32,625 bases of DNA from Planctomycetota bacterium (GCA_028280785.1 JANQLF010000065.1:1-32625); one strand, 5' to 3'. Positions 9,167 through 19,265 are shown, counted from the stretch's first letter. The notes: generated from the letters alone by a model not told the origin. Numbers and translations: made by a program.

Positions 9167-11109
9167 GCGAAATTTTTCGAATTTTATCACCGACCGCAAT
9201 TTTAGGCTATGGCTTTCCTGAACGTTCATTCGAACAAGCCATGCAAGAGCATATCGACCTTATTGCCGTCGATGCCGGATCGGTGGATGCTGGCCCTTAT
9301 TATTTAGGTTCTTCAAAACACTATGTCGCGATGGCGGCTCTTGAACGCGATTTGCGTTTCATGATTCGCGGCAGCATTCAACAACAATGCCCCTGCATTA
9401 TTGGCAGTGCTGGCTTTTCCGGCGCCAATCCGCAATGCCATGCGGTTCTCGAGTTAATTCAACGCATCACTATTGAAGAAGGCGGCAACGAATTAAACAT
9501 TGCACATATTGATGCAACAGTACCAAGTGAGCTCATTCGCAATTACCAAAGTGAATTAACTGCACTCGGACGCATGCCCGTATTAAGCGATGACATTTTA
9601 ACAGAAAGCAAAATCGTTGGGCAAATGGGCATTGAACCCATCATCACTGCACTTGAACAAGGTGCCGACATAATTGTTTGTGGTCGTGCTTATGACCCTG
9701 CTGTTTTTGCAGCTGCCCCTATACACGCAGGATTCGACCCAGGCATTTGTTATCACGCCGGAAAAATTCTCGAATGCGGCGCGATTGCCTGCACACCTGG
9801 TTCGGGCAGTGACTGCTTAATTGCAGAAATACATCGCGATCGGCACGCTGAATTTTATCCATGCAATGATATGCGTGCATGCACCATCAAATCTATCGCC
9901 GCACACAGTTTATACGAAAAGTCACGCCCAGACTTTTTTCACCTCCCCGGTGGCATTCTTTCCATACAAAAGACTGAGTTTTATCACGTTAACGATAAAC
10001 GTGCAGGCATTCGCGGCAGTCAATTTATTGCCGAAACTCCATCAATTAAATTAGAAGGTAGTCAAGCTGTTGGTGAACGCAGTATTTCATTAGTCAGTCT
10101 CAATGACTGCAATGACATCAGCGATGATATACGCATTTATGGACGCAACGGCGTTGAAGCAGATCACGATGATACTGATATGGGCATCATTTGCTTAGTG
10201 CAAAGTGATAATAAAACGGCTGCTCATGATGTCTTAGCCAATCTGCGATCTGGATTACTGCACTACGGTTATCCCGGCCGCATATCGACTGCAGGTAATT
10301 TAGCCTTTCCCTGTTCGCCGAGCGACATTGATTGTGTTATTGATGAAACACCAAGTAGTTTGTTTATCGCAGGGACGCGCGATCCAATCTTTCAACGAGA
10401 ATGGAGCCAGACCCAAATCGCTTTACTGCAACAAGTACAATCGCAAATACCAGACCTCTTTGAACAATGTGATATCAAATGGATTATTGCCGATGCCAAT
10501 AATCCTGTCGCTTTTATTCAAGATCAGTCACAACTAAGCAGTTTAAATAACAAGCGAAAAGCAAATGGCTTCCATCTTGAAAGTCTCTCGATTGGCACTG
10601 TTTATCAGTGGTCAGTGCATCATTTAATTAAAGAACAGGCCTGCCTTGAACAATTATTTCCAATATCCCTATGGAAGCATGATCAAACCTGGCAATGCAC
10701 GCAAACTATTCCATGCAATTGGCATCACAGCCCTAGCGACAGCACTGGTACCATAGGTGCTGATCAAGCACTGCTTATTCAAGATAAAACACAAGAACAT
10801 GGCATCGCATTAATTGATGCAGCTGAAGTTATCCGCAGCAAAAATGCCGGCATTAATGAAATCACCTTTGATATCATCTTTAAAAACGAAGATAATTTCA
10901 AACTGGCCCTTGCATCGTCTGCTTTTGAAAACAGCAGCATTACTTCGCTTTTGGGAATACCGGATTCAGCATTAATAGGCTGCTACCAGTACCCTATTGT
11001 TAACGCGATTAAAATAACCTGCCATCGATCCTGCCTTGCTGGATCACCACAAGACCGTGATGTATTTGGCGCACAGCAACAGAGTAAATTACTCAGATTG
11101 TTGTTTTAA
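9151..11109 (+). CDS. AtuA-family (DUF1446) protein fused to a DUF4387 domain
   Basis: The 652-residue protein has an acyclic-terpene-utilisation AtuA-type domain over about residues 15-450, with VDAGSVDAGPYYLG, IIVCGRAYDPAVFAAAP, and GSGSDCLIAEI. The last 100 residues end RDVFGAQQQSKLL, which matches the C-terminal signature of the small DUF4387 family. These two families are usually adjacent separate genes; here they are one chain. The biochemical role is not established. AtuA is needed for growth of Pseudomonas on citronellol-type terpenes, but most homologues lie near organic-acid genes. The 16-bp overlap with class I fumarase supports an organic-acid role here. The 3' end overlaps the convergent metallopeptidase gene by 21 bp. 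Confidence 0.82.
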   Translation: MEPYLSEIFRILSPTAILGYGFPERSFEQAMQEHIDLIAVDAGSVDAGPYYLGSSKHYVAMAALERDLRFMIRGSIQQQCPCIIGSAGFSGANPQCHAVLELIQRITIEEGGNELNIAHIDATVPSELIRNYQSELTALGRMPVLSDDILTESKIVGQMGIEPIITALEQGADIIVCGRAYDPAVFAAAPIHAGFDPGICYHAGKILECGAIACTPGSGSDCLIAEIHRDRHAEFYPCNDMRACTIKSIAAHSLYEKSRPDFFHLPGGILSIQKTEFYHVNDKRAGIRGSQFIAETPSIKLEGSQAVGERSISLVSLNDCNDISDDIRIYGRNGVEADHDDTDMGIICLVQSDNKTAAHDVLANLRSGLLHYGYPGRISTAGNLAFPCSPSDIDCVIDETPSSLFIAGTRDPIFQREWSQTQIALLQQVQSQIPDLFEQCDIKWIIADANNPVAFIQDQSQLSSLNNKRKANGFHLESLSIGTVYQWSVHHLIKEQACLEQLFPISLWKHDQTWQCTQTIPCNWHHSPSDSTGTIGADQALLIQDKTQEHGIALIDAAEVIRSKNAGINEITFDIIFKNEDNFKLALASSAFENSSITSLLGIPDSALIGCYQYPIVNAIKITCHRSCLAGSPQDRDVFGAQQQSKLLRLLF

Positions 11110-12153
11110 GTCCTGTTTAAAATGTTCTTTAAACCAAGCGCGTAAGGGACCAAGAACCTTGTTAACTTGTTCCACTTGTTGTTCAGGAATAGGTTGGGCC
11201 TTTGAAATAATATGATCAAAGACAAATAACTTTGGGAACATATCCGCTGATGCTTCATTAGGATGATAAACATTACCACTCATAGGAAATAGCTGGCGAA
11301 AGTTAGGTGACATCATTAAATTTATCGAACGCGGTTGATCATCACCTTCTGCGATTACTGAGGCAACACCATCTTTGACTTCTACATCAATGGCAAGCAT
11401 GGAAAAATCCATAGGCATATGTTTAATAGGCTTTTCACTTTCGCGAAACACGACCAGAGGCCATAAATATTTATTCTCACCATTCGGCAATACCCACAAA
11501 CATTCGACCCCATCAGGATTAGACAAATGATGTTTTACTAACCACGGGCATGTTTTGATTTCTTTTAACTTTTTAAATCCCCAAACATCTGTATATAACT
11601 TATCAAACGCCCCTTGATGTGTACGTTGGTAAACATGTATTTGTTCATGTAACAATAAAGTGATCAATGCAGCCTGCATCACCATATTATCACCACCACG
11701 CTTATGCATAAAAACGAAACGCTCGCACTGAGCTTCTGAAAAGACAATGCAATCACCTCGTGTATGCGGTAAACCACCCTCTATGTTATTGACCATCTTA
11801 AGAAATTTCCACGGTACTGCTGCAAGCTTTGGATAATGCTTCTGCAATACTGGATGGATACTTTTAACAAATCCACGAAAAGCTTCCTGCTCTTCCTCGG
11901 TAATTGCTCGTGCACCAGCGATATAACGTTTACGGCACTCTTCTCGTTGTGACGCAAGGTCATCACCGGTTATAGGTGATCCTGTTTTCGCTGTCATTTC
12001 CATTGGCTGCAAGGTTTCGAAATATGGTTCTAAAGAATCATCAACAATTGCTTTTTGTGCTTCTTCTAGCGTCAAGCACTTTAATACAAAGGAATCTTCC
12101 TCAGCACTAATCCAACAACAAATTACAAGGGTCAATATTAAACGTACATACAT
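11089..12153 (-). CDS. Secreted zinc metallopeptidase-like protein (HExxH, NExxA)
   Basis: The chosen ATG at 12153 gives 354 residues, has CGGAG 7 bases upstream, and starts directly with a signal peptide (MYVRLILTLVICCWISAEED). A longer frame from a TTG at 12201 lacks these features. LLLHEQIHVY places HEQIH at residues 169-173, and HPNEASADMF places Asn299-Glu300 about 130 residues later. HExxH plus a downstream NExxA..D is the gluzincin-type arrangement in which two His and one Glu hold zinc. No named peptidase family was recognised, and the substrate is unknown. It is the third gene of a minus-strand row after the 1246-residue membrane protein and a lipoprotein. Confidence 0.75.
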   Translation of the reverse strand: MYVRLILTLVICCWISAEEDSFVLKCLTLEEAQKAIVDDSLEPYFETLQPMEMTAKTGSPITGDDLASQREECRKRYIAGARAITEEEQEAFRGFVKSIHPVLQKHYPKLAAVPWKFLKMVNNIEGGLPHTRGDCIVFSEAQCERFVFMHKRGGDNMVMQAALITLLLHEQIHVYQRTHQGAFDKLYTDVWGFKKLKEIKTCPWLVKHHLSNPDGVECLWVLPNGENKYLWPLVVFRESEKPIKHMPMDFSMLAIDVEVKDGVASVIAEGDDQPRSINLMMSPNFRQLFPMSGNVYHPNEASADMFPKLFVFDHIISKAQPIPEQQVEQVNKVLGPLRAWFKEHFKQDLKQQSE

Positions 12154-12185
12154 GACTATCTCCGAATCTTGTTCAGAATAGGTGT

Positions 12186-12204
12186 GTCTTGATTCAATCA
12201 AGAC
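12186..12204. repeat. Perfect 9-bp inverted repeat between two minus-strand genes
   Basis: GTCTTGATT (12186-12194) and AATCAAGAC (12196-12204) flank one base. It lies just after the lipoprotein gene (stop at 12208) and about 33 bp before the metallopeptidase start. There is no run of U after it on either strand, so a classic terminator is not supported. An operator or an mRNA-processing hairpin are options. Confidence 0.4.
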
Positions 12205-12207
12205 GTG

Positions 12208-12663
12208 CTATTTCACTTCCTCTTTCCAAGACTCTGGTAATGGCTTGGGCACCGTTTTCTTGGGCTTTAATTTATTATGAGAAATAACAAATTCAGCATA
12301 GTCATCACCAACTAAAAAATTAACCAGTTTTTCTACACGAATAAAGAGCAGCGTATCATCATAATCATAGGTAATCACCTGACCGAATTGAACAGAATGC
12401 GCATCAATTATTATTTTACCCTTTGAACTGATGACCGAAAACATCACTTGTCCGCCGGTAATATCTCCAAGTCTGATAAATGCACGTCCCCGTGAACCAG
12501 GAATCGCTTCTCGACGCCGCTGATGAACTACAACTGTGATTGGATCCTTGGGTAAGGTGATTTTACCAACCACATAGGGGCTTGGCGGCTGATCATGGCG
12601 AACGGCCTCTTGCCCACACGCAATGAGGCTCAAGGCCACTAAACCCAGAACTAAAAAACGCAT
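12208..12663 (-). CDS. Small lipoprotein of unknown function
   Basis: The 151-residue protein has a lipoprotein signal peptide (MRFLVLGLVALSLIAC) with Cys16 as the lipidated residue. The mature part is short, mainly beta-strand in character (ITVVVHQRR, GQVMFSVISSKGKIIIDA, LLFIRVEKLVNFL) and ends with a Lys/Pro-rich tail. I recognise no family. Its ATG follows the TAG of the 1246-residue gene with no gap (TAGATG), so it is almost certainly made in fixed proportion with that protein. A structural or assembly partner in the envelope is a reasonable inference, not shown. Confidence 0.85.
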   Translation of the reverse strand: MRFLVLGLVALSLIACGQEAVRHDQPPSPYVVGKITLPKDPITVVVHQRRREAIPGSRGRAFIRLGDITGGQVMFSVISSKGKIIIDAHSVQFGQVITYDYDDTLLFIRVEKLVNFLVGDDYAEFVISHNKLKPKKTVPKPLPESWKEEVK

Positions 12664-15600
12664 CTATTTTAATTCAGCGAGCGTTTGTTTATAATCCAAG
12701 AAGCTCTTGTCATTTTTATCAAACTTAATGACGAAGGCATCTTCTTTATGCGGCAAGACGTTAAACAACGCGCCTTTGGTTATGCCACCAAAGTAAATGT
12801 CACCCTTATCACTAATCGCGACTGCTGTACCTGTATCCTCGGCATGTGAATTAATTGTTTTGGACCACAGGGTTTTGCCATTGATGTCCAGGCGACTTAT
12901 CTTCGCGTTTTTCGCTTCGCTACCTGCTGCGTAAATACGTCCTTTGGTATCCTGACTGAGTGCATTTATTTTTTCACCACCAATACCGCGCGCCCACTGC
13001 TTAGCCCACACTTGTTTGCCGTCAGCCGTCCAGGCCATTAATAAGGCATCGGTGTCTCGTGATCGTTTTGTCGCAAAGGTCGTACCGTAAGTGTGGCCAC
13101 CGACATAAATGTGTTGATTGCTATGACAGAGCAGACTGGTTGGCGTCTCGCGACCTGTGCCACCAAATTGTTTGGACCACAAGGCTTGGCCTTCTGCGCT
13201 ATATTTAGCTAAGAACATATCTTGGTCACCACTTTGACCTGCACGTTTTGCAAATAAATCACCCTTGGTGGTACCGCAGACATAGAGATTACCAAGACCA
13301 TCGGTATCCATGCTCGTGACAAAATCATCGTCTTTGCTACCGAACTGCTTGCCCCACATGACTTCGCCAAGACTGGAAATCTTGACAATGACGGCGTCAT
13401 GTAAGCCATTATTTTTAGCATAGAATTTTTGATCGCTGCTACCAGCAATGTACACATTGCCAAGATCGTCGACATGCATGCATTGTGCAGTTTCACGACC
13501 ACTGGTTCCTAATTGGGTTTTCCAGACAATCGTTCCACCCGCATCCATTTTCAACACAAAGATATCGCTGACACCTTTTTTACTGCCAGCTAATTTTCCT
13601 TCGCAGTAACCGGATACATACATAAAGCCTTCTTTATCCACATGCGAACCAGCAATAATGTCCAATCCAGAAGAACCAAACTGTTGCTTCATTATTTGCG
13701 TACCAGTCGCATCGTAAGACAGTAAATAAACATCGTGATCACCTAAACCTGGGCCACCCAAACTGCCATCAGTATCACCACTGACAAATAAATGACCCTT
13801 GCTGTTTAAACTCAAGGTGTGCAGGGAGTCATAATCGTAGGTGCTGATTTGCATGCAGGTATTACTATTCGTTACAATGGTTTGGTAATGCTTATACCAT
13901 TTATCATAAGTTTTCTTCGAAAGCTTGGCAGCTTTAAACATACGCAATGAATCTTCATAAGGCTGCAATGCACCTTCATCCAATTCTTGAATGGTCTTCT
14001 TCGACAATACAGCAAAGCGTTGACCGACGCCAATCATTACATCACGCTTCCATTTTTTAGCAAAGTCACTGGATTTGGTATACTGCGCATGTTTTTTCAG
14101 ATCAGTAAAAACTCCACCTTTTAATGCCTTATAAATGGTGCCCATATCGACTGAAGCAAACGATTTACTCGACGGATTAAACGGCAGACGTTGTTCTATC
14201 TTAGCAGCAATCGCCACCTTAATCGCGGCATGCCATTGTTCAGATTGCTCACTTGAGCCAGACCAGGCTTCATGTTTTTTCATTGCGGCAAATATAGTAT
14301 TCGATTCATCATTAAGCATAGCCTCTAAGTCAGCCTCTGTTTGCTCGCCGAGTTTTTTACTATCGTTAATAAAGGCCAAGCGCTTAACAATATGCGTCGC
14401 TAAGGCTTTTTGAATATTTAGGTTCCACGCGTCGGCTACGTCTTGCTTGCCACCGAGCTCTTTAAATACCGCGACATCCTTGGCCCAAGCACTTTGTTCA
14501 TCCTCTAGCATTGCAGTTAATTGCGCTTCATCATGCGCACTTAAGATATCGACACTAGCAGCCGCACTTAAACGTTTTTCAACCTTAGCCAATAATGCGG
14601 ATTCAAAATTCGCTTGCCATTGTTTACGCTGTTGATCCCCACCACTCAAACGTGCATGGAGCGTCATATCTAATGACAATGCATGGTCGCCTACGTAGAG
14701 AATTTGATGCAAGGTTTTCTCGTCCATCGTTGCGACGTTTGCTGCCTCAACACGTGCAGTGATTTGTTGGCAAATAACTTGATTCAAAGTTTGCATCCAA
14801 GTGTCACGTTGGGCACTATCCCCACTCATTCGTTCATGTGTTTGCATTAATTGATGATGCGCATTATTCGTATCTTCTAAAATTGCTAATAGTTCTGTTC
14901 CTGAACGCTCGCCCAACATGGCCGCTTCATCTAAAAACGATAATTCTTCGGCGATGCGTGTAGCGGCGTAGGATTTCACCTGCGTACGCCACTCATTTTC
15001 CTGGTCAGTTGATTGCGCCAGAATAGATACCAATCCCATTTGACGAAATGTTTCATTGTCATTCGATTCAATGATTGCCACGACGCTATGTATATCTGAT
15101 TTATCAAGTACAGCAGATTCAACACTTGCTTGCACGTCTTTTTCTAATTGAGCCTGCATCTCGGCGATGGCTTCTTGGCTACCGCGTTCGGCTCTAAATA
15201 AATTCAATTTATTGGCATCAGCCTTCGATTGCAGAAATGCCGCTAGCAATGGCTTGCTGAAAACACTCGCGCACTGTTGCGCTTGTTTGCTGCTCCACGC
15301 GGCTTCATCTGGCTTTGCACTTTCCATACGTGTAAGTGCTGCATCCAATTCGCCATTAGGCACATCTTTGACAGCCGCTAAATCAGCATGCAATGCGTGT
15401 TGCTTAATTTCTTTTTCCAACCACTGATGATAAGCCTGGTAAAAGTCGTGACGTTTTTGGTAGTAAGCAGTACTCTTTTCACCATCGCCCTTTTCACTGA
15501 TATCACTGTTCATTTGTGTAAGCAATGCAGCGCTATCAGCCAATAATGCATCACAAGCACTCAGAAATTCATTAGCTTGGCTTACATGTGTTGCCAGGGT

Positions 15601-16404
15601 GTCACGCTTAGCTTGAATTTTTGCTTGGTAATCCTGGTAATACCAAAACCCTCCGCCGAGTAATAAGGCCAAGACCGCAGCCATCATTAATTTACCTTTG
15701 CCGCCTTTGCTACCACTTTGTTTGGCAGATTCGCGTGCTGGCCGCGATGGCTTAGCATTGCGCTTATTCGATTTACTTGGCTTGGCTTTATTTGATTTAT
15801 TCGCACGACGTTTTGTTGTCGGCTTGGTTTCAGGCAATGCTTCTTCAACAATCGCTGCTTCTAATTCTTCTTCGTTAATTAAATCCTCTTCGACTGCGTC
15901 AGTTGCAATGTGTTCTTCTTGAATTGAAGCTGGTTCTTTTTCCTGAATTTCTTCAGCAGCTGCTTCGATTAAATTCGAAACAGAGTCATCAGTAGAAACA
16001 TCTTTAACGTCGGAGAAACTTAAGTTGGTCTCGAGTTCCAATTCAACTGATTCTGTTTCGGCCTTGGTAATTGATGCTGTAATTGGCACATCGATATGTT
16101 CATCCTCATCATCGACCTCATCTAAATCGATCTCGTGCTCTTCGGTATCCAAACCGTCATAGTCGACTTCAGCCTCAACTGATGGCGGACGTTGTGGCTG
16201 TGTCGGCGCCATCATCTGGATGATATTCATCGCCTCGTTCATATCTTCGAGCGCAGCTTCGGCTTCGTTTTGCTCTGACGGATTCTTGGCAGCGGCGAGT
16301 TCAGCTTGAAGCGTCGCTCGCTTCAGGCCATAAGCCTCACGACGCTCTTCTTCAGAGCTGTCATAGGCGATGTTGAATAGGTCTAGCGCTTCTTCGAGAT
16401 TCAC
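12664..16404 (-). CDS. Large one-pass membrane protein: J-like N-terminus, Trp-anchored helical repeats, SBBP propeller
   Basis: This 1246-residue protein starts at GTG 16404, with GAGGG 7 bases upstream. Residues 1-62 form a helical unit resembling a J-domain (SSEEERREAYGLKRATL) but without the HPD triplet. Residues 78-190 are strongly acidic, 196-238 strongly basic, then one membrane helix (about 239-256). Residues 410-845 hold about seven copies of a roughly 62-residue helical module, each closing on a Trp (472, 536, 596, 660, 724, 785, 836). Residues 850-1246 contain seven SBBP-type repeats (for example GNVYIAGSS, GNLYVCGTT, GDIYFGG), enough for a seven-bladed propeller. The basic stretch before the helix predicts the N-terminus inside and the propeller outside the inner membrane. 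Function is unknown; the lipoprotein and metallopeptidase genes downstream suggest an envelope complex. Confidence 0.85.
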   Translation of the reverse strand: MNLEEALDLFNIAYDSSEEERREAYGLKRATLQAELAAAKNPSEQNEAEAALEDMNEAMNIIQMMAPTQPQRPPSVEAEVDYDGLDTEEHEIDLDEVDDEDEHIDVPITASITKAETESVELELETNLSFSDVKDVSTDDSVSNLIEAAAEEIQEKEPASIQEEHIATDAVEEDLINEEELEAAIVEEALPETKPTTKRRANKSNKAKPSKSNKRNAKPSRPARESAKQSGSKGGKGKLMMAAVLALLLGGGFWYYQDYQAKIQAKRDTLATHVSQANEFLSACDALLADSAALLTQMNSDISEKGDGEKSTAYYQKRHDFYQAYHQWLEKEIKQHALHADLAAVKDVPNGELDAALTRMESAKPDEAAWSSKQAQQCASVFSKPLLAAFLQSKADANKLNLFRAERGSQEAIAEMQAQLEKDVQASVESAVLDKSDIHSVVAIIESNDNETFRQMGLVSILAQSTDQENEWRTQVKSYAATRIAEELSFLDEAAMLGERSGTELLAILEDTNNAHHQLMQTHERMSGDSAQRDTWMQTLNQVICQQITARVEAANVATMDEKTLHQILYVGDHALSLDMTLHARLSGGDQQRKQWQANFESALLAKVEKRLSAAASVDILSAHDEAQLTAMLEDEQSAWAKDVAVFKELGGKQDVADAWNLNIQKALATHIVKRLAFINDSKKLGEQTEADLEAMLNDESNTIFAAMKKHEAWSGSSEQSEQWHAAIKVAIAAKIEQRLPFNPSSKSFASVDMGTIYKALKGGVFTDLKKHAQYTKSSDFAKKWKRDVMIGVGQRFAVLSKKTIQELDEGALQPYEDSLRMFKAAKLSKKTYDKWYKHYQTIVTNSNTCMQISTYDYDSLHTLSLNSKGHLFVSGDTDGSLGGPGLGDHDVYLLSYDATGTQIMKQQFGSSGLDIIAGSHVDKEGFMYVSGYCEGKLAGSKKGVSDIFVLKMDAGGTIVWKTQLGTSGRETAQCMHVDDLGNVYIAGSSDQKFYAKNNGLHDAVIVKISSLGEVMWGKQFGSKDDDFVTSMDTDGLGNLYVCGTTKGDLFAKRAGQSGDQDMFLAKYSAEGQALWSKQFGGTGRETPTSLLCHSNQHIYVGGHTYGTTFATKRSRDTDALLMAWTADGKQVWAKQWARGIGGEKINALSQDTKGRIYAAGSEAKNAKISRLDINGKTLWSKTINSHAEDTGTAVAISDKGDIYFGGITKGALFNVLPHKEDAFVIKFDKNDKSFLDYKQTLAELK

Positions 16405-16619: not shown

Positions 16620-19265
16620 TTATTGCTTAATCGATGCAGTGGCCTCGGCCTGATAGAGCAAATCAACCTCGGCGATGCGGTTGTTGACCATATCGCAGAT
16701 ATACAAGGTCTCACCAATGCGACTCACGCTAAAGGGCCATCCCAGACCTACTTTCTCAGGATCTCGCTCTGCACTATCACGATTGTCGTAGCGACCGATG
16801 CGTTCCATTTGATTACCGTTGGTGTCGATCATCTCCACTGAAAAGCGGAATGCATTCGGCGTAAAGACACGCCCATAAGGATCGGTGCACATTCGAATGT
16901 TCCAACATGAACACGATGGGTCGCCCCAGCTTTCGCCATCCGTTGGAATTGGTGAGCAGCCTTTGTAAATCCATTTCGCCCCAGTAATCGCGTGCACGAC
17001 ATTTAAATAGCCAGTACGAAATAATTGTGCATCTTTGGGAATATCAGTAGGTTTCGCTGCGAGATAGGCACCTTGTTTACCAGTATAACCCTCTGGGCGC
17101 CAAGATGTGAACTTACCACCTTCAGGGCCAAATTTAACGACACTGCCCCAATAGAACATGTAAGTATTATAATAGACGCGATCCCACGGTGCTGGTCGTT
17201 CTTTTTTATAATATTTCCAACCGTACTTCGGCACATGCTTATCGAAGCCATGTGGCCAAAATTCCTCATCATCACTCATCGGACGTAAGCTGGTACCGAC
17301 ATAAATATTTCCTTGGAAATCTACTGCTATACCACCAGATCCATATGGTAAGTTATCAATTAATTTTTCTTTTAATAATTCACCGTCAGCGGAATACTTA
17401 TCGATTTGAGCTTTTTGATATTGACCCATTTTAATCACATAAAAATTTCCATGTCCATCATAGGTAAATCCACGGCCACCCTGGCCTGCACCTTTGACCT
17501 TAGCAATAACATCCTTGCCCTTAGCATCAGCGCCCAGTTTCCACGGACCAATACCTTTTGGCTTACCCGGGAACCCCTTCTTTTTTCCATCTGCTTCAAA
17601 AAGCGTCATACGTACATTCCAACCTGATGGCCCCAACAAATGGCCACTTGGACTCACCGCTACTTCATCTAGTTGCAGTTTGAAATCTGTGACTTCGTTG
17701 GTTTTTAAATCAATTTGCTTAAAGCTAGCCTTCTCTTGGAAATTCTTAACAATCACACGATTGTTTTTTTCATCAGCAGTCACATAGAGCGGAAACAATA
17801 AGCCATTACGATTATTAATATCCTCGCCTCGTTCGAGGGCCGTACCTTTATCGTACAAAGCATAAACCGAATCAGCCGACATGTAGCGGTGATGATGAAC
17901 CACCCATATTTTAGTATCGGCACCGGTATCATCGAGGGCCATAGCCTTAAACGATGGCGTATTACGCTTTTCCTGCGTTACAACAGACGCAAGTTCCTTA
18001 ATGTCGCCAGTAGATAGCGCTGAAAATTTACGTACTGAACTCAACGGTTTCTTAGTTGGGTTCTGCTTAATATCGCGACTGAGCACATAAATCTCACCAG
18101 TTTTACGATGTATTTTTACTTGGTAGGGATCTTTAACTGTAAATTTATTTAGAAATTTTCCTTCACTATTATAAATCATCACTCGTGCATTACCATGATC
18201 ACAGACATAAATATTACCCTTAGTGTCTACGCCAATGCCAATGGGCATATTAAAACTATAGTCATCATTACCTGGTTCTTTTTTACCGATAAATAGTTTT
18301 TCAGGTAATTTTTTATCTGACCACGTTACGCGATAAATACCGTGCGTACGCAATTTGTCATAAGACCAACCGGCAATATGGGTTTTTAGATAAATCCACT
18401 TATAATCAGGACTACAGGCTGTCGATGAAAACACATTACTCACTGATTCACCAGCCCCACCAAAAAAACCACGCTCATTTATGATTTGTGGACCCATGTA
18501 GCCATCTTTGACCGGATGTCCGCCTTCAGGGTGAATTTTTAATAAATAGTGTGCAGGACCATGATTAGATAACGAGCCAACCGCACTTGATATAATTAAA
18601 TTGCCATCTTTATCATAACTGATGTCTTGTTCACGCAGTGCTGACATAAAACTCTGGGTCGAACCATTTTGCGCATTCGCCACATACGGAATACGCTCAC
18701 CATTTATTTCAAAATAATGTATATCCTTTAGCCGCTCTTTCGGTGTATTCGCTGGATACGGTACAATGGTGTTTTTATATTTACCTTGATTATCAAAACG
18801 TCTAACCCAACTACGACCCCATTTATTTTCACTACCAAGCAAAATAAGATCACCATTGGGCGCTACACTAATAGCGCGGACAAACATACTCAGTACTTGC
18901 TTATCATCACCGAGGTAACGTTTTAATTTTGAATAAACACCCAACTTGACCAGAACCTGACAATCGCCGGAAACTTTTTTACCAAAATCATCGTTTCCAT
19001 CCCAGGTTACCGTCTGCGACAATGTATTGGCCTGCAATGGTGCTGGAGGATTTTTACCTAGCGCTCCCGAGACCAAATGTCGAACGACTGTTCCTGATGC
19101 ATCAACAATCGCCACAGTGACATCAGTATAGTCACTCAGCGTGAAACTTATCTCATGAACACCGGCCTTCGAGGTAACGGCAGGTTCCTTCTTAAAAGTC
19201 ACGCCCTGCAAATGGGCACACAGCAACATTAAGGCGCTACAAATGACAACGGCTAATCTCGGCAT
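16620..19265 (-). CDS. Large secreted NHL-type propeller protein with FlgD-like Ig domain
   Basis: The 881-residue protein has a signal peptide (about residues 1-21), then a FlgD-like Ig segment that includes VTWDGNDDFGKKV (near residue 90). The rest is made of NHL-like propeller strands such as IGVDTKGNIYVCDHGNARVMIY, GGIAVDFQGNIYVGTSLR and the final TLYICDMVNNRIAEVDLL (each quoted in part as pattern evidence). A Cys-rich stretch (GDPSCSCWNIRMC) lies near the C-terminus. Proteins of this build are frequent in PVC bacteria; their role outside the cell is unknown, with ligand or glycan binding or lactonase-like activity as possibilities. GGAG lies 7 bases before the ATG. It is separated by 215 bp from the next gene on the same strand, so it is probably its own unit. 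Confidence 0.82.
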   Translation of the reverse strand: MPRLAVVICSALMLLCAHLQGVTFKKEPAVTSKAGVHEISFTLSDYTDVTVAIVDASGTVVRHLVSGALGKNPPAPLQANTLSQTVTWDGNDDFGKKVSGDCQVLVKLGVYSKLKRYLGDDKQVLSMFVRAISVAPNGDLILLGSENKWGRSWVRRFDNQGKYKNTIVPYPANTPKERLKDIHYFEINGERIPYVANAQNGSTQSFMSALREQDISYDKDGNLIISSAVGSLSNHGPAHYLLKIHPEGGHPVKDGYMGPQIINERGFFGGAGESVSNVFSSTACSPDYKWIYLKTHIAGWSYDKLRTHGIYRVTWSDKKLPEKLFIGKKEPGNDDYSFNMPIGIGVDTKGNIYVCDHGNARVMIYNSEGKFLNKFTVKDPYQVKIHRKTGEIYVLSRDIKQNPTKKPLSSVRKFSALSTGDIKELASVVTQEKRNTPSFKAMALDDTGADTKIWVVHHHRYMSADSVYALYDKGTALERGEDINNRNGLLFPLYVTADEKNNRVIVKNFQEKASFKQIDLKTNEVTDFKLQLDEVAVSPSGHLLGPSGWNVRMTLFEADGKKKGFPGKPKGIGPWKLGADAKGKDVIAKVKGAGQGGRGFTYDGHGNFYVIKMGQYQKAQIDKYSADGELLKEKLIDNLPYGSGGIAVDFQGNIYVGTSLRPMSDDEEFWPHGFDKHVPKYGWKYYKKERPAPWDRVYYNTYMFYWGSVVKFGPEGGKFTSWRPEGYTGKQGAYLAAKPTDIPKDAQLFRTGYLNVVHAITGAKWIYKGCSPIPTDGESWGDPSCSCWNIRMCTDPYGRVFTPNAFRFSVEMIDTNGNQMERIGRYDNRDSAERDPEKVGLGWPFSVSRIGETLYICDMVNNRIAEVDLLYQAEATASIKQ

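Follow-up and report, generated by a model that had tools for sequence, protein, structure and literature searches.

A large predicted envelope protein of a Planctomycetota bacterium combines a Trp-anchored helical repeat resembling the TssM/IcmF helical domain with an SBBP propeller

A Planctomycetota contig of 32,625 nucleotides (GCA_028280785.1, JANQLF010000065.1:1-32625; this whole stretch of DNA is called the window below) encodes a protein with a repetitive helical middle part and a propeller at its end, and the question is what such a chain is built from and what it might do in the cell envelope. The gene (12664-16404, minus strand) is a single ORF of 1246 residues, with a GTG start preceded by AAGAGGG and a TAG stop. 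The initial annotation had assigned the span 12208-16404 to this protein; the large ORF was confirmed, but the span takes in two genes, since a lipoprotein gene is included. The features are listed in Table 1.

Table 1. Features of the large gene and of its two downstream neighbours in the window.
Feature	Position	Strand	Basis or remark
N-terminal domain, three-helix bundle, residues 1-66	16207..16404	-	AlphaFold2, single sequence; presumably cytoplasmic
Acidic linker, probably disordered, residues 67-190	15835..16206	-	D/E content
Basic juxtamembrane linker, residues 191-237	15694..15834	-	K/R content
Single transmembrane helix, residues ~238-257	15634..15693	-	Hydropathy
Proximal segment, residues 258-459, probably helical	15028..15633	-	Possibly a degenerate module at 418-456
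Module m1 (W472)	14836..15027	-	Leave-one-out HMM 13.4 bits
Module m2 (W536)	14656..14835	-	Leave-one-out HMM 6.5 bits, borderline but in register
Module m3 (W596)	14464..14655	-	Leave-one-out HMM 27.6 bits
Module m4 (W660)	14272..14463	-	Leave-one-out HMM 30.0 bits
Module m5 (W724), with RLPF where TssM has RYPF	14089..14271	-	Leave-one-out HMM 22.6 bits
Module m6 (W785), doubtful, shortened	13936..14088	-	Missed by leave-one-out HMM
Last helix, lone W836	13855..13935	-	Only Trp and its surroundings left
SBBP beta-propeller, residues 856-1246	12667..13839	-	Pfam SBBP 3.5e-21
Lipoprotein, 151 aa	12208..12663	-	Lipobox LIAC
Secreted metallopeptidase-like protein, HEQIH and HPNE motifs	11089..12153	-	Motifs and homologues

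The large protein is probably a scaffold or sensor that spans the cell envelope, as judged from the layout of its chain. The two charged linkers proposed initially were recovered, one acidic (36% D/E in residues 70-190) and one basic (30% K/R in residues 190-245), and so was the one membrane helix: no other part of the chain is as hydrophobic as the single stretch at ~237-257 (hydropathy 1.45 over 19 residues). The basic stretch precedes this segment, and therefore, by the positive-inside rule, the N-terminus would be cytoplasmic and the C-terminus outside. Between the membrane helix and the propeller lie about 600 mostly helical residues, the helicity having been modelled for residues 1-77 and 584-712 only. 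Residues 418-456 gave weak matches to the module HMM, and no period was found in residues 260-420.

Self-comparison of residues 400-870 gave peaks at lags of 188, 64, 124 and 128, among others, and the observed repeat maximum was reached by none of 1000 shuffles of this region. The repeat length is about 64 residues. The initial annotation had described about seven modules with a period of some 62 residues, anchored by Trp 472, 536, 596, 660, 724, 785 and 836. All seven Trp residues are present and the period is real; however, only four modules are firm in the leave-one-out HMM test carried out for each module. Module m2 is borderline because its score barely exceeds the shuffle maximum of 6.0 bits (taken from the all-module HMM), m6 is doubtful, and W836 is a lone Trp. 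The count as read from the sequence is five modules, perhaps six. The expected three-helix unit was also obtained: the AlphaFold2 model of m3-m4, for which modules of the protein itself were aligned in three rows as input, has moderate confidence (pLDDT 70) and contains two copies, each with one long helix of ~26 residues followed by two short ones of ~10. A Foldseek search with this two-module model returned no TssM and nothing significant. The module profile also matched UDP-2,3-diacylglucosamine hydrolase in the PDB (E 0.0075); this candidate was dropped, the match being weak, isolated and without the RYPF feature described below.

The chain ends in a clear SBBP propeller, related to that of CylK and predicted to have seven blades. 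It passes the SBBP model PF06739 (75.3 bits, cut-off 20.5), matches CylK chains at ~1e-53, and has a 56-residue period that was reached by none of 1000 shuffles. The seven blades follow from the W-x-K-Q-F-G / I-Y-V-x-G register (completed by eye) together with the CylK homology, in agreement with the seven repeats counted initially. The NCBIfam LipL53 model gave 1.9e-45 on the propeller, yet this is below the model's cut-off. In a plasmid search with the full protein, the matches listed fall in the propeller region. The large protein shares the propeller sequence with CylK and LipL53-type SBBP proteins, whereas its overall build differs from theirs; we know of no membrane anchor combined with a repeat stalk among them.

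The N-terminal domain is modelled as helices at residues 3-15, 18-38 and 42-65 (AlphaFold2, single sequence, pLDDT 73.8). It had been read as a degenerate J-like domain, which was not upheld. The HPD motif is missing from residues 1-66, Pfam DnaJ (PF00226) gave no match, and the hhalign score against a profile of J domains from the host genome and its relatives (12.0) lies within those of the shuffles (mean 9.2, maximum 17.4). When the fold was checked with Foldseek, generic three-helix bundles came up (of the MIT, Dps and sensor kinds), along with a single DnaJ in 41st place; no match was significant, and a J domain is not supported. The domain has no known signalling match in Pfam or the phylum genomes, and no homologue was found in 294 phylum genomes. 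A genuine, though divergent, J domain (HRPDKD) is encoded elsewhere in the host genome, far from the window, in a protein that directly follows a DnaK-like gene (L104 3808-6863, genome G000, contig C175).

The closest resemblance found for the modules, missed by the initial annotation, is to the helical domain of IcmF/TssM (PF21070), at its W-x14-RYPF start. To our knowledge, this domain is known only from type VI secretion. TssM was chosen beforehand as a lead by its W...RYPF motif, which steered the search, and TssM-like proteins were gathered from the phylum by their IcmF_C match; several of them lie in T6SS-like clusters of same-family genomes, and PF21070 is present in all eight that were aligned. 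Their helical domain has a W followed by R-Y-P-F, or a variant of it, at +15/+16/+17/+18, and the R-L-P-F of m5 has the same spacing from its Trp. Against the 618-column TssM alignment, the module profile scored best (28) exactly at the W-x14-RYPF site; TssM windows without this site scored at most 15, and column-shuffled YPF profiles (n=150) reached a maximum of 15.4. Comparison of the module and TssM profiles gave 81.6% and E 1.1e-5 in hhalign, this being a single comparison of small alignments. Moreover, a reciprocal test among 292 proteins showed that the best foreign match of the modules is TssM at the W-x14-RYPF spot, and that the best non-TssM match of the TssM profile is the large protein. 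The top three local matches of the stalk as a single-sequence query (m5, m4 and m1) all fall on the same TssM region. With the TssM YPF-profile, m5 scored best (9.4 bits against a shuffle maximum of 5.1, n=200), followed by m1 (5.7 bits), and m4 scored 4.2 bits. The single-profile HMMER search against Pfam found no IcmF_helical in the large protein. Homology between the modules and the TssM/IcmF helical domain is thus regarded as likely but unproven.

The comparison with TssM (PF21070 IcmF_helical; PDB 4y7l/4y7m/4y7o, 6hs7 and 6ixh) can be extended to the whole chain. TssM and, by its predicted location, the large protein share the inner membrane, a periplasmic portion made mainly of helices, a beta domain at the end, the W-x14-R-(L/Y)-P-F spacing in the unit and a lipoprotein gene nearby. 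The large protein differs in that it has no GTPase (no Pfam match was obtained, and its N-terminal part consists of ~66 ordered residues plus linkers), one membrane helix instead of the three in TssM, and a unit that is repeated five to six times, unlike in TssM; it ends in a propeller, whereas TssM ends in its own beta-domain. The lipoprotein partner of TssM is TssJ (PMC3213119), but the neighbour of the large gene is not. Identity with TssJ was rejected after hhalign gave a probability of 1.3% against lipoproteins that take the place of TssJ in the T6SS clusters of same-family genomes.

No convincing relatives of the stalk or the N-terminal domain were found in up to 392 phylum genomes, in two scans covering 85,000 species, in viral contigs or in phages, apart from weak leads in G011 and G124. 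Both parts are orphans in ~390 phylum genomes, and the large protein has so far been found in one bacterium. Neither the N-terminal domain nor the modules have a homologue outside the host genome, and therefore conservation or co-occurrence gives no functional support. The same predicted build nevertheless recurs in two proteins of the phylum, where a cytoplasmic domain is followed by a basic stretch, a single membrane helix, a stalk and a terminal head. In G011, a same-family genome, a 1742-aa frame that runs off the contig end (L119 3862-9090, contig C340) contains a kinase, a membrane helix, about ten Trp-anchored repeats and an FGE-sulfatase domain, with a weak BON match. Common to both chains are the cytoplasmic domain, the basic stretch, a similar Gly-rich membrane helix, Trp-anchored repeats (of ~48-57 residues in G011) and the C-terminal head; the G011 protein differs in having the kinase in place of the small N-terminal domain and FGE in place of the propeller, and its repeats are only weakly similar. 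As the closest relative of the stalk it was set aside, because it scored below TssM. The protein in G124 (L107) consists of DUF4388/TPR domains, a membrane helix, an intervening region and a PQQ propeller. It shares with the large protein the cytoplasmic domains, basic stretch, membrane helix, intervening region and terminal propeller, whereas the N-terminal domains are different, the propeller is of the PQQ type and the Trp modules are absent. It matches the large protein across the basic/membrane region (E 9.5e-5), which may reflect the composition of that stretch.

The two genes downstream of the large gene belong to unnamed families. The lipoprotein ATG follows directly after the TAG stop, as had been noted initially. 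Homologues of the lipoprotein are present in 14 others of the 198 phylum genomes and share a conserved domain, QR..PGS.G....(G/D)DIT.GQV...L(V/I)G(E/D)D. This family has no Pfam entry and is phylum-wide (L041-L062); the domain is sometimes found within longer frames, and once it adjoins an FHA-like protein (L051). The probable start of the metallopeptidase-like gene is the ATG at 12153, which leaves 54 bases between this gene and that of the lipoprotein. Its homologues, found in nine other genomes of the 198 (L063-L067 among them) and likewise giving no Pfam match, align at HExxH and HPNE; in L063 the former reads HKQTH, so this member may be inactive, its glutamate being replaced by lysine. 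Between the two genes lies a 13-pair inverted repeat (12181-12209) with no clear T-run after it on the minus strand. On the other side, an ORF on the same strand (16620-19265) lies upstream of the large gene at a distance of 215 bases. Its product is a secreted protein of 881 residues that contains NHL repeats and, weakly, a FlgD-like Ig region; the two genes could share a transcript.

The best explanation, held tentatively at a little under an even chance, is a bitopic protein of the inner membrane that tethers or senses the envelope by means of a binding propeller on a repeat stalk in the periplasm, its modules being distant copies of the TssM/IcmF helical domain outside a type VI secretion system. 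The significance of the repeat, the three-helix model, the firm propeller, the profile and reciprocal matches to TssM, the phylum proteins of like build and the abutting lipoprotein gene count for it. Against it count the negative HMMER and Foldseek searches for TssM, the orphan state of the stalk and N-terminal domain, and the homologues of lipoprotein and peptidase that occur elsewhere without the large protein. The sequence itself gives the order of the parts. The N-terminus would lie in the cytoplasm, one helix would cross the inner membrane, and the modules would span the periplasm as a rod. At its tip, the propeller might then bind a partner at the peptidoglycan or the outer membrane, for which the co-encoded lipoprotein is a plausible candidate, and the protein would tether or sense the envelope from both sides; we infer the link to the outer membrane. 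For the modules, it is conceivable, though rather doubtful, that the TssM helical domain was taken from its original context, copied in tandem to give a rod in the periplasm and fused to a propeller, to work without the secretion system. That the protein is instead a degenerate or repurposed TssM, the remnant of a lost type VI system, is very improbable. The modules do resemble the TssM helical domain, and same-family genomes keep T6SS clusters with TssM; however, GTPase and C-terminal TssM beta-domain are lacking, there is one membrane helix, and the unit is repeated. Moreover, the two T6SS marker families tried in the host genome, which is ~90% complete, gave no match for either IcmF_C (PF06744) or VipB (PF05943), and no T6SS-like neighbours were found among the window ORFs read.

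A signalling receptor is possible but on the unlikely side: propeller and stalk would detect a ligand in the envelope or outside the cell and relay its state to the helical domain at the N-terminus, as in the kinase receptor of G011, but with a small protein-binding domain in place of the kinase. The G011 protein does carry kinase, membrane helix, Trp-anchored repeats and FGE-sulfatase in one chain, with one repeat pair (blastp E 0.001-0.003) and, weakly, the membrane helix (20 residues, E 0.21) matching the large protein; but comparison of the repeat profiles gave 14.7, barely above the best shuffle (14.5, n=100), and the N-terminal domain is without a known signalling match. The initial proposal, an envelope complex in which the large protein, lipoprotein and secreted peptidase, here taken as co-transcribed, would link the inner to the outer membrane, is unlikely. 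The evidence for it is adjacency: the three genes lie on the same strand, with the first two abutting and the third close behind. Against it, the inverted repeat separates lipoprotein and peptidase genes, and the homologues of these two occur elsewhere in sets of genomes that do not overlap, and without the large protein being found there. No relatives of the N-terminal domain or the modules were found in the genomes carrying them, and no conserved neighbourhood of either gene was found in the phylum genomes. Since the sets are disjoint and no stalk relative was found in them, a conserved complex cannot be argued from the order of the genes at this locus. Of the initial description, an envelope protein with a helical repeat and a propeller is supported, together with an N-in/C-out topology, but not the J-like domain or the complex.

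If the relation to TssM is true, the TssM helical domain would serve these bacteria more generally as a building block of the envelope, and its repeated form would show a mechanical role of the helical part of TssM. The locus also points to a class of proteins composed of a cytoplasmic domain, a membrane helix, a stalk and a head, with swappable ends.
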